Source: a virus. Taken from it: DNA of 51,450 bases. The stretch covers positions 1 through 51,450 of IMG/VR virus record IMGVR_UViG_3300046522_000347. The stretch is one strand, 5' to 3'. Below are positions 16,481 to 19,720 of this stretch, one piece after another. The notes below the pieces were generated by a model, which was given only the letters and a program-made list of their open reading frames with translations, did no database searches and was not told the DNA's origin. How positions within the stretch are numbered: position 1 is the first letter of the stretch; every line of letters starts with the position of its first letter. The position numbers and the translations under genes are program-made.

Positions 16481-16662
16481 CTATACCTTCTGTACTGTAC
16501 CGTCGAGATTTTACCTAAATGCTCTTTCCTGTCAACTATACCTTCTGTACTATATTTAATGTACGGGAACTGTAGTCACTGGTGTATAAGTATAGTATAG
16601 AAGGTATAGAGGGCTGGAAATACAGATTTGCAAAAACTGGAAACATAGTACAGAAGGTATAG
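16481..16662. promoter_or_regulatory. Four copies of a 19-bp element in the divergent control region
   Basis: Copies at 16481-16499 and 16536-16554 read CTATACCTTCTGTACTATA (or a close variant). Copies at 16591-16609 and 16644-16662 are its reverse complement (TATAGTACAGAAGGTATAG with small changes). Two copies thus face each way around an AT-rich gap of about 230 bp between the 185-aa gene and terS. They could be operators for a regulator, terminase small-subunit binding (pac) sites, or both. The rest of 16477-16706 holds no gene that I can see. Confidence 0.7.
16508..16535 (-). promoter_or_regulatory. Promoter of the 185-aa zinc-ribbon gene
   Basis: Minus strand: TTGACA (16535-16530), 16-bp spacer, TAAAAT (16513-16508). 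It is flanked by element copy 2 just upstream of the -35 and copy 1 between the -10 and the start codon. Confidence 0.7.
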
Positions 16663-16706: not shown

Positions 16707-17411
16707 ATGAGAAATGATGAACCAACACTGAACGATTGGCTGTTTATCGGAGAGTACGTAAAGGATTGGAAAGCCGGGGACGCGATGCGCCGCGCCGGGT
16801 TCTACGTTGGGGACTTTTACAGTCAGGAAGCGTACCGCCGTTTAAAGAAGCCGGCGGTGATGCGAGAGATCGCAAAAATACGTGACGCAGCAAAGACAAA
16901 AGTACAGTTAAGTACAGGCGTCATCGTTGACGACATCTTGAACGTAATCACCGCTGATCCCCGCGACCTCATCGAAACCGTGACCGAATCGTGCCGCTAC
17001 TGTCATGGCGCGGATCACATGTACCAATTCACGTTGAACGAATGGCGACGCAAGGAATTCGAAGCTGACGCCAAAGCGGAACGGCCGCCGCATCCCCTGG
17101 GCGGGATCGGGTTCAATCCCCATCGCGATCCGCACCCCGACTGCCCCGAATGTTTCGGGAAGGGCATCGTGATTGAACGCCTCAAGGACGTGCGCGATCT
17201 GTCCCCGGCCGCCGCTGCTCTATATATGGGCGTCGAGCGCACGAAGTCGGGCTTGAAGATCAACATGCGTAGCAAGGACAGCGCACGTGACGCCGCCGCG
17301 CGCTTCCTGGGCATGAACAAGGAAACACACATCCTCAAGGATGGCGGCAAATCGCTGGCCGACATGAGCGATGCGGAATTGGAAGCGCTGGCGAGGGGTG
17401 AGGGGCAATGA
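16707..17411 (+). CDS. terS: Terminase small subunit
   Basis: A 234-aa protein expected to recognise phage DNA and load the large subunit. The N-terminal 60 residues are an HTH region (WLFIGEYVKDWKAGDAMRRA... AYRRLKKPAVMREIAKIRDA), then VDDILNVITADPRDLIE, typical of the Terminase_2-like family. A CRYCHG...CPECFGKG zinc finger is inserted in the middle, separated by an aromatic/basic loop. The C-terminal KDSARDAAARFLGMNKETH motif is also typical. It overlaps the large subunit by ATGA. Confidence 0.85.
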   Translation: MRNDEPTLNDWLFIGEYVKDWKAGDAMRRAGFYVGDFYSQEAYRRLKKPAVMREIAKIRDAAKTKVQLSTGVIVDDILNVITADPRDLIETVTESCRYCHGADHMYQFTLNEWRRKEFEADAKAERPPHPLGGIGFNPHRDPHPDCPECFGKGIVIERLKDVRDLSPAAAALYMGVERTKSGLKINMRSKDSARDAAARFLGMNKETHILKDGGKSLADMSDAELEALARGEGQ

Positions 17412-19720
17412 CCGCCGGTATCTTCCAACGGCAGGCCGCCGCCGAGTTGCTGCGCAGGCGCCGCGCCCGTGTCGACCCGGTGCATTACGCCGAGTACGTC
17501 GACGTCCCCGGACGCCCTGTTGAGGACGAGGCGGAAGACGGCGAGGTCGTCATTGACGCGCCCGAAACGCTGCTCGCTCAACATCACAAAATGATTTTGC
17601 GCGAGGTCGAAGAATGCTTCCTGAAGGACACGGGGCGTCTGATGATCTTCATGCCCCCTGGCTCGGCGAAGTCGACGTATGGGTCGGTCGTCGCGCCGTC
17701 GTACCTCATGGGCAAGTACAAGAAGACGCGCATCGGTCTCGCCAGCTACGCCGATTCCCTGGCGCTCAAGATGGGCCGGCGCACCCGCTCGATCATCAAC
17801 CAGAAGCGCTACAAACAGACGTTTGACGTCGAGTTGTCCACCGAGTCGGCCGCCGCGAACAACTTCAAGCTGACGAACGATAGCGAATACATGGCAACGG
17901 GCATCCTGGGCGCGTTCACCGGCAATCGCTTCGAACTCTTGATGATCGATGACCCGGTGAAGGGCCGCGAGCAGGCCGACTCCGAGACGATCCGGAATAA
18001 GACGTGGGACGCGTTTCACGACGACCTGTTGACGCGTCTCGTTCCAGGCGGATCGATCGTGATCATTCAATGCATGGTCGGCGATACGCAAGTTCTCATG
18101 GCTGACGGAACAGAGCGGGCGTTGCGCGATGTGCGACCTGGGGATCGTATCGCCACGTACGACAACGGGCGCATGTCCGCATCCACCGTACGCAACTGGG
18201 CGAATCAAGGTTCTGATCAAGTGTTCACAATTAGGATGAGTTCCGGTAAAATTGCCACCGCGAATGAGAGGCATCCGTTTCTTGTTGCGCGCAATGGGGA
18301 ATTGAAATGGGTTCGACTAAAGGAACTGACGGTCGGGGATATGATCGTTCGGGCCAGCAAAAGCACGGAGGGTGGCGCGGCGTCCAGTGTGCATACGACG
18401 GCTGCGACAAGCATGCAAAGTGTAAGGGGATGTGCATGTCCCATTACAACAAAACGAGATGGGCAAACGGCCATCGACCCCCATCCGTCAACGCCGACAG
18501 CAGACGCGACGCCCATCTCAAACATCGATACGGGATCACGCTGGCCGAATACAAATCACTTTTCGATTTGCAGGACGGGCGCTGCGGAGTGTGCAGGCAA
18601 CCCCCCGGCGACAACGTGCACGCGCATTGGGGCGGAAAGCTGTGCGTCGACCATTGCCACGAAACAGGCAAAGTTCGAGGCTTGCTCTGCAACGACTGCA
18701 ATCTCGCAGTTGGATACGGGAAGACTGCCGACATCCTGCAACGGGCCGCTGAGTACCTACAGTTTCACGCTGGATGAAATCAGCGAGATTGTCGACGCTG
18801 GATACGAAGACGTTTTCGATATCCAAGTTGATCGAACAGAGAACTTCATTGCCAACGGCGTGGTGAGCCATAACACCAGATGGCACGAAGACGACCTCTC
18901 GGGCCGCATCCTGCCGGTTGACTGGAACGGCGAATCGGGCGACATCATGTGCCGCGATGGCAACGTGTGGCGCGTGTTGTGTCTCCAGGCTGAGTGCGAT
19001 TCGGATACCGACCCGCTCGGGCGCAAGCGTGGCGAGATGCTGTGGCGCGAATGGTTCACGGAGAAGCATTGGGCGCAGTTCCGGGGCGAAGCGCGCACCT
19101 GGGGCGCACTCTTCCAGCAGATACCGAAGCCAAAAGACGGCCTGATGTTCAAGCCGGACAAGATCGAGATCGTCGACACGCTGCCGGCCGGGCGCATCAC
19201 ATGGGTGCGTGGCTGGGACTTGGCAGCGACGGAAGGTGGCGGCGCGTTCACGGTGGGCGGTCTGCTGGGCATCCATCAACCGACGCAACGCCCCATCATT
19301 GCGGACATCGCGCGGTTCCAGAAGGCGCCGGGCTCGCGGGACGACTCGATACGCAACGTCGCGGTGATGGACGGGCGTCTCGTCAAACAGGACATTCCGG
19401 ACGATCCGGGCGCGGGCGGCACGGCGCAGACGGAATACCTTGTCAAGAAGTTGAAAGGCTGCTCTGTGGTATGGGGGCCGGAAAGCGGCGACAAGGAAAC
19501 GCGCGCCATCCCGTTGGCGTCGGAAGTCAACATCGGCAACGTGATGATGCTCCGTGGCGAATGGAACCGGCCGCTATTGGAAGAGATGCGCGCGTTCCCG
19601 AACGGGACGTACAAGGATCAGGTTGACGCGCTGTCGCGGGCATACTCTCGCCTCGTTCCCCTTCCCGGTAGAATGCAGATCAATAAAACCCTTCTCAACA
19701 AAGTCAAGGCGCAACGATGA
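17408..19720 (+). CDS. terL: Terminase large subunit precursor containing an intein
   Basis: The DNA-packaging ATPase/nuclease, 770 codons as encoded and 502 aa after predicted splicing. N-extein: Walker A-like MPPGSAKST, Walker B FELLMIDDP. The intein occupies residues 222-489. The C-extein resumes with TRWHEDDLSGRIL, the conserved post-Walker B motif, then the RNase H-like nuclease (RGWDLAATEGGG; DQVDALSRAYS). Joining residues 221 and 490 gives ...VIIQ-TRWHEDDL, the expected family sequence. The product acts at the portal with TerS. The gene overlaps terS (ATGA) and the following small gene (ATGA). Confidence 0.92.
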   Translation: MTAGIFQRQAAAELLRRRRARVDPVHYAEYVDVPGRPVEDEAEDGEVVIDAPETLLAQHHKMILREVEECFLKDTGRLMIFMPPGSAKSTYGSVVAPSYLMGKYKKTRIGLASYADSLALKMGRRTRSIINQKRYKQTFDVELSTESAAANNFKLTNDSEYMATGILGAFTGNRFELLMIDDPVKGREQADSETIRNKTWDAFHDDLLTRLVPGGSIVIIQCMVGDTQVLMADGTERALRDVRPGDRIATYDNGRMSASTVRNWANQGSDQVFTIRMSSGKIATANERHPFLVARNGELKWVRLKELTVGDMIVRASKSTEGGAASSVHTTAATSMQSVRGCACPITTKRDGQTAIDPHPSTPTADATPISNIDTGSRWPNTNHFSICRTGAAECAGNPPATTCTRIGAESCASTIATKQAKFEACSATTAISQLDTGRLPTSCNGPLSTYSFTLDEISEIVDAGYEDVFDIQVDRTENFIANGVVSHNTRWHEDDLSGRILPVDWNGESGDIMCRDGNVWRVLCLQAECDSDTDPLGRKRGEMLWREWFTEKHWAQFRGEARTWGALFQQIPKPKDGLMFKPDKIEIVDTLPAGRITWVRGWDLAATEGGGAFTVGGLLGIHQPTQRPIIADIARFQKAPGSRDDSIRNVAVMDGRLVKQDIPDDPGAGGTAQTEYLVKKLKGCSVVWGPESGDKETRAIPLASEVNIGNVMMLRGEWNRPLLEEMRAFPNGTYKDQVDALSRAYSRLVPLPGRMQINKTLLNKVKAQR
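18071..18874 (+). mobile_element. Intein in the terminase large subunit (268 residues)
   Basis: Block A starts at Cys222 (CMVGDTQVLMADGTERALRD). A block B-like NERHPFLV ends in the conserved His289, with Asn at the usual Thr position. WVRLKELTVGDMIV is the next Hint strand. Blocks F/G are DVFDIQVDRTENFIANGVVS followed by His488-Asn489, and Thr490 is the +1 nucleophile. All residues needed for class 1 splicing (Cys1, block B His, terminal His-Asn, Thr+1) are present; the block F His-Asn pair is Glu-Asn. Residues about 318-452 in this frame have no Hint or endonuclease motif, being Ser/Thr/Cys/Ala-rich, because that DNA encodes an HNH protein in another frame. Confidence 0.9.
18307..18777 (+). 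CDS. HNH / endonuclease VII-like putative homing endonuclease, out of frame inside the intein
   Basis: A 156-aa protein read in the -1 frame relative to terL. Residues 28-46 form a Cys-rich knuckle (CAYDGCDKHAKCKGMCMSHY). The typical phage Endo VII domain follows: RYGITLAEYKSLFDLQDGRC with C93 and C96, the catalytic VDHCHETGKVRGLLC (D115, H116, H118), and CNDCNLAVG (C128, C131, N132). The domain is full length with an ATG just before it and GGGGA six bases upstream of that ATG. It ends where the C-terminal splicing blocks begin. It is most likely the homing nuclease that spreads the intein into intein-less terL alleles. Confidence 0.85.
   Translation: MGSTKGTDGRGYDRSGQQKHGGWRGVQCAYDGCDKHAKCKGMCMSHYNKTRWANGHRPPSVNADSRRDAHLKHRYGITLAEYKSLFDLQDGRCGVCRQPPGDNVHAHWGGKLCVDHCHETGKVRGLLCNDCNLAVGYGKTADILQRAAEYLQFHAG

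Follow-up and report, generated by a model that had tools for sequence, protein, structure and literature searches.

The textbook intein carries its endonuclease as an in-frame domain, and splicing and homing are therefore tied together in one polypeptide. The terminase gene terL in the phage DNA analysed here (51,450 nt, hereafter the window) raises the question of whether both activities can instead come from two reading frames of the same DNA. A preliminary description of this sequence had proposed that a Hint splicing domain (Cys1 to His-Asn, Thr at +1) interrupts terL before TRWHEDDL, and that a complete Endonuclease VII/HNH protein with its own ATG and a plausible Shine-Dalgarno sequence is encoded within it in the -1 frame. 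Both proposals were borne out, and the locus is organised as follows.

17408-19720, + strand: terL open reading frame including the intein, 770 codons without an internal stop
17408-18070, + strand: terL N-extein, 221 aa, ATPase part (Terminase_6N PF03237; phrog_4758, phrog_38)
18071-18874, + strand: whole intein, 268 aa (Cys1, N65xxH68, C-terminal His-Asn, +1 Thr)
18071-18367, + strand: N-terminal splicing region of the intein, aa 1-99, with Cys1, N65-x-x-H68 and the invariant Trp80 (AF2 pLDDT 83-97)
18296-18301, + strand: GGGGAA resembling a Shine-Dalgarno sequence, separated by 5 nt from the nested ATG; in 128 loci, anti-SD duplex energy has its peak at this place
18307-18309, + strand: nested ATG, made up of the wobble A of the Lys79 codon and of TG from the invariant codon of Trp80 (TGG 18308-18310); its place is conserved in the family
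18307-18777, + strand: nested Endonuclease VII/HNH gene, 156 aa, from ATG 18307 to a TGA stop, in the -1 frame relative to terL (PF02945 match, dN/dS)
18368-18739, + strand: terL-frame filler, intein aa 100-223, an open unconstrained linker made of nuclease codons read out of frame (AF2 pLDDT ~35, dN/dS, stop counts)
18740-18874, + strand: C-terminal splicing region of the intein, aa 224-268, with the His-Asn end (profile matches; AF2 pLDDT ~95)
18875-19720, + strand: terL C-extein, 281 aa from Thr+1, RNase H-like nuclease, plus the stop codon (Terminase_6C PF17289)

The window belongs to a tailed phage, encoding a small terminase, portal, head protease, major head protein, tape measure, primase and DNA polymerase. 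The exteins of its TerL are of the terminase_6 type, and the intein is inserted in the C-motif, in agreement with the TerL6-f site of Kelley et al. 2016 (PMC5050341). The intein matches Pfam PF14890 Intein_splicing (E=3e-18) as well as the NCBIfam N- and C-terminal intein models TIGR01443 and TIGR01445 (E=3.5e-07 and 7.9e-06), and it possesses the class 1 residues C1, N65xxH68, H267 N268 and T+1, which are conserved across the family. In the AF2 model, which agrees with solved mini-inteins, the Hint halves 1-99 and 224-268 are predicted with confidence, while the 124-aa filler between them is disordered; its characterisation in the preliminary description as Ser/Thr/Cys-rich was fair. A group I intron with an endonuclease ORF was also considered and ruled out, as no Rfam match to a group I or II catalytic RNA core was found between 16000 and 20000 at E<=0.1.

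The 156-aa nested protein matches PF02945 Endonuclease_7 with E=2.7e-19. It contains an N-terminal CCCH zinc-finger-like module (C28, C33, C43, H46), a Cys4 zinc site (C93, C96, C128, C131) and the catalytic-type residues D115, H116, H118 and N132. In a 37-member nuclease alignment, D115-H116-x-H118, N132 and the Cys4 residues are invariant. The AF2 model of the protein has a mean pLDDT of 86, and a profile search retrieved T4 Endonuclease VII (2.6e-8) and Hpy99I. T4 Endonuclease VII also ranked at the top in Foldseek, with weak TM-scores of 0.30-0.36. The nested nuclease thus has its best PDB matches there and shares with T4 Endonuclease VII (PF02945) its sequence, the catalytic motif DHxH...RGLLCN.CN and the Cys4 zinc site. 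In contrast to the T4 enzyme, which is itself a resolvase, it lies inside an intein and carries the finger-like module, which is duplicated in some members (L018-L026) and plausibly, by inference, serves site recognition. No second copy of the nuclease was detected elsewhere in the window genome.

The same arrangement recurs in many relatives. In tblastn searches against annotated phages, the best relatives of the nuclease sit in terminase genes of Gordonia and Mycobacterium phages, one frame off. The nested gene is unannotated in the records L001-L006, where the terminase alone is listed and the intein noted once. Viral contigs contributed 19 further loci with intein and nuclease, the offset being identical in all, and the layout is shared by all 26 of the first loci. 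Retrieval set out from nested-type sequences and took in the best 80 matches of each scan (for the intein, the best 80 of 466); because only these were sampled, other arrangements may exist further out among the intein matches. Profile scans and HMM classification identified an N-intein in at least 191 loci among the matches listed; 184 of the 191 continue into an in-frame C-intein and encode the nuclease in the -1 frame. Made non-redundant at 90% nt, the TerL inteins of phages and prophages form at least 129 clusters. Among the matches listed, none of the 129 clusters has a stop in the terL frame, Cys1 is kept in 127 and the His-Asn end in 123, and the +1 residue is Thr in every cluster where the contig continues. 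Since the loci are related, these counts are not independent tests. The contigs with genome matches are assigned, among others, to Mycolicibacterium, Nonomuraea, Bradyrhizobium, Gallionellaceae, Geobacteraceae and Anaerolineae.

No HNH domain was found in frame within an intact precursor among the matches listed (191 intein loci), so that homologues with an always in-frame HNH, which would have refuted the preliminary description, did not appear. In the locus L173, a single indel joins the nuclease to the N-intein frame and at the same time shifts the C-intein out of it, reflecting either a sequencing error or a fresh inactivation; L173, the single apparent case of an in-frame HNH homologue, was therefore dismissed as such. 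Outside the family, the Acinetobacter ME3 terminase intein (L085) is a plain mini-intein without an out-of-frame nuclease. The Gordonia portal intein (L086) and the Mesorhizobium terminase intein (L087) have no nuclease in another frame and, by eye, look like ordinary in-frame LAGLIDADG-type inteins. Judged by these three, the nested layout appears restricted to the TerL C-motif intein family.

The start of the nested gene lies at one place in 128 of the at least 129 clusters (90% nt), as ATG in 105 and GTG in 23. Its position is intein nt 236 (+/-6); the shifts, of one or two codons, are limited to inteins with an indel. The start codon is built of a wobble base and the TG of the Trp80 codon (A/G|TGG), where the background frequency of wobble purines is 47.5%. 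Across 128 loci, anti-SD pairing 5' of the start averages -6.6 kcal/mol, compared with -2.4 for control windows of the same phase; of the windows in nuclease phase along the N-intein, the one exactly at the nested start has the minimum. The Shine-Dalgarno-like signal partly owes its strength to a purine-rich Asp/Glu-Gly stretch in the intein.

The openness of the terL frame is far beyond chance, as synonymous codon shuffling of the nuclease in 123 loci showed. No terL-frame stop was seen over the nested gene versus 182.2 expected, while the unused third frame contained 1423 stops versus 1389 expected. The frame equivalent to terL is open in only 2 of 46 freestanding EndoVII homologues versus all 22 nested ones, although the freestanding set is more AT-rich. 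Within the nested region, dN/dS is 0.06-0.22 in the nuclease frame and ~0.9-3.2 in the terL frame. At the three terL codon positions, the N-intein has substitution rates of 0.18/0.14/0.43, the nested region 0.13/0.45/0.19 and the C-intein 0.14/0.05/0.51. Judged from these alignments, the protected frame changes to that of the nuclease at the nested gene and then reverts. Together with the disordered filler in the AF2 model, this frame-specific substitution indicates that the terL frame needs nothing but the absence of stops: it is selected in the overlap merely against stops, and only the nuclease sequence is conserved. The overlapping-frame selection anticipated in the preliminary description therefore exists, but it is asymmetric.

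Closely related phages reveal the mobility of the element. Over 1761 nt, the terL genes of the Mycobacterium phages Philly and Phlyer are 99.4% identical, and in Philly the intein is precisely missing; those of the Gordonia phages Paries and Affeca are 97.2% identical with a clean empty site in one. Between Philly (L260, near 1051) and Phlyer (L001, 2779/3542), there are differences +4 and +15 nt away from the site of insertion, such as a co-conversion tract would leave. Intein identity exceeds extein identity in 95% of locus pairs, and the identity of the intein correlates with that of the nuclease (rho 0.58) more than with that of the exteins (0.25). In the pair L114/L175, the exteins are 30% identical, the intein 84% and the nuclease (HNH) 82%. 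Conversely, the Gordonia phages Nordenberg and Angelicage (L004/L006, 514-2907) have exteins of ~100% identity, while the intein at the same site is 62% and the nested HNH 46% identical, which suggests allele replacement. In a further pair (L003, 787-1560; L005, 2606-3505), the exteins are 90%, the inteins 74% and the nucleases 45% identical, the L005 nuclease having an extra zinc-finger-like module; it is possible that the nuclease alone was swapped between these types. Precise presence/absence combined with horizontal spread is one mark of a mobile intein, and the TerL element shows it; the other mark, cleavage of the intein-less allele by the endonuclease, is inferred.

The nuclease can also be lost. 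It has been removed by in-frame deletion in L095, L131, L134 and L162 and broken by stops in L187 and L245, and the terL frame is still open in all of these. At the same TerL site, an AT-rich contig (L104, 1823-2269) carries a 149-aa mini-intein without nuclease and with an open terL frame. Such degenerate copies fit the homing cycle that would be expected where the phage needs splicing but can spare the nuclease. The layout, its conservation, the frame-specific selection, presence/absence, horizontal spread and nuclease decay with an open terL frame are hence demonstrated by comparison.

We consider it very probable that the TerL C-motif harbours a mobile intein of class 1 type, with its homing nuclease encoded by a separate nested gene in the -1 frame. 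That the nested ORF is translated, that empty sites are cut and that homing is the driver are inferred parts of this reading, as there are no peptide, ribosome-profiling or cleavage data. In the proposed mechanism, initiation at the terL ATG would yield a 770-aa precursor, whose Hint halves (aa 1-99 and 224-268) would fold around the disordered 124-aa filler and excise to leave a 502-aa TerL. Internal initiation on the same mRNA at ATG 18307 via GGGGAA would give a free 156-aa zinc-binding HNH nuclease. This nuclease may then cut intein-less terL alleles in a mixed infection, and recombinational repair of the cut terL would copy the whole element into the break. The initial proposal that one stretch of DNA produces a splicing intein and a separately initiated out-of-frame nuclease is accordingly supported by comparative evidence, short of direct proof. 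Its alternative idea that the nuclease had 'drifted into' a mini-intein needs correction: this is no local event but an ancient architecture, conserved together with a single fixed position of the start. As to origin, we infer that a freestanding EndoVII gene most likely entered a mini-intein and took its start from the Trp codon; a frame slip of a formerly in-frame domain is less likely. This rests on the nuclease's own start and stop codons, on its freestanding relatives and on the absence of an in-frame version among the matches listed.

Several other readings must be weighed against this one. The nested product might be translated but serve the phage, as a packaging-linked HNH nuclease or a Holliday-junction resolvase, instead of homing. 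Freestanding EndoVII-family proteins are indeed common in phages, the family also has non-homing roles, and HNH proteins adjoining terminases aid packaging (PMC11855218). However, near-identical phages do without intein and nuclease altogether, degenerate copies persist, and intein and nuclease move jointly across unrelated TerLs, which leaves a phage service unlikely. Still less likely is a programmed -1 frameshift from the terL frame that would produce an N-extein-IntN-HNH fusion without internal initiation. Programmed shifts commonly go to -1, the frame in which the nuclease invariably lies, but a nuclease-frame stop lies at most 15 nt upstream of the nested start in 55 of 128 loci and abuts it in 8, which is evidence against entry by frameshifting; moreover, the exact position of the start codon and the Shine-Dalgarno peak would be superfluous.

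The degenerate copies could also suggest that the nested ORF has no function, being a relic or a chance overlap. For the family this is refuted by the strong purifying selection in the nuclease frame and by the conservation of the metal-binding and catalytic residues and of the start, and the window copy is intact; we give this reading hardly any weight. Finally, sequencing or assembly indels might have broken up a normal in-frame intein endonuclease, and L173 proves that single indels do arise in such contigs. The preliminary description had itself named two indels restoring one frame as a possible refutation. This reading, to which we assign practically no credence, is refuted by the conserved frame offset, which is identical in at least 129 clusters with many completed phage genomes among them. 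Since the layout is kept in at least 129 distinct relatives, the nested-nuclease TerL intein is a real, widespread mobile element and no sequencing accident.

In comparison with known systems, canonical mobile inteins, whose LAGLIDADG or HNH endonuclease domains are in frame, likewise have their Hint domain interrupted between blocks B and F by a homing-type nuclease, and a homing life cycle including degenerate forms is common to them and the TerL family. Their definition, an endonuclease that is an in-frame domain of the precursor, is not met here. The window nuclease has start and stop codons of its own in a different frame and is for this reason outside the spliced-out intein protein. Dassa et al. 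are said to have described, in 2009, fractured genes in which split inteins flank a freestanding endonuclease. In such genes (UvsX-type; L084, L088), the nuclease is made apart from the splicing domains, as in the window, but the host gene and intein are split into two ORFs, while terL is one continuous ORF (17408-19720) that codes through the nuclease; the fractured-gene criterion of a split host gene is thus not met. In L084 and L088, from the T4-like phages HY03 and S16, intein N-parts end pieces of uvsX or uvsW and other ORFs lie next to them, which corresponds to the fractured-gene split intein type.

A closer parallel is the ShiLan domain/Pacc40 insertion, an HNH nuclease out of frame in a phage methylase insertion without splicing domain (Arsenault, Gosselin, Gogarten 2025, PMC11855218). 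Both elements combine an out-of-frame HNH, a phage host gene that stays open and a disjunct, homing-like distribution (PMC11855218). However, the ShiLan insertion is thought to remain in the methylase, whereas the window's nested gene is enclosed by a complete Hint domain and, unlike ShiLan, has a Shine-Dalgarno signal and one conserved start. The absence of a splicing domain around the HNH, which marks the ShiLan type, does therefore not apply.

The TerL6-f inteins of mycobacteriophages have the same insertion as the window's, in the terminase_6 C-motif. Their representative, from Chandler gp6, was cloned and splices efficiently in a reporter (Kelley et al. 2016, PMC5050341). By analogy with this homologous intein (PMC5050341), the window intein would splice as well. 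The endonuclease assays in that study (Kelley et al. 2016, PMC5050341) covered only two inteins with in-frame LAGLIDADG domains, and no mention of an out-of-frame nuclease of TerL6-f was found in its main text. The Chandler intein is identical to that of Phlyer at 761 of 762 nt and contains the nested -1 HNH ORF with a GTG start. A preprint by Gosselin et al. (2025) on non-canonical actinophage inteins is cited for overlapping frames in actinobacteriophages by PMC11855218 and, judging from this citation and from its title, may already describe such nested nucleases. No literature closer than PMC5050341, PMC11855218 or this preprint was found. The odds are roughly even that work on actinophages has already noted the nested-intein class; the TerL family extends beyond these, being also present in contigs assigned to non-actinobacterial hosts. 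Whether we are dealing with an undescribed, widespread class of mobile inteins, with a homing nuclease gene that is entirely separate, lies out of frame in one continuous host gene and takes its start from an invariant Trp codon of the splicing domain, is in our judgement evenly balanced.

In the TerL element as read here, splicing and homing would fall to two proteins from one DNA stretch inside an indispensable phage gene. If the separate-gene class holds true, the two functions could be regulated and lost independently. A selfish nuclease can evidently inhabit an essential gene while demanding only a stop-free host frame, and seeming mini-inteins may conceal active nucleases. The element also offers a natural system for overlapping-gene evolution, in which frame-specific selection is measurable to the codon. 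Apart from the intein, four copies of a 16-19-nt motif, CTATACCTTCTGTACT(A/G)TA, were observed at window positions 16481-16662, just 5' of the small terminase gene, with direct as well as inverted copies; they possibly represent an operator or control site.
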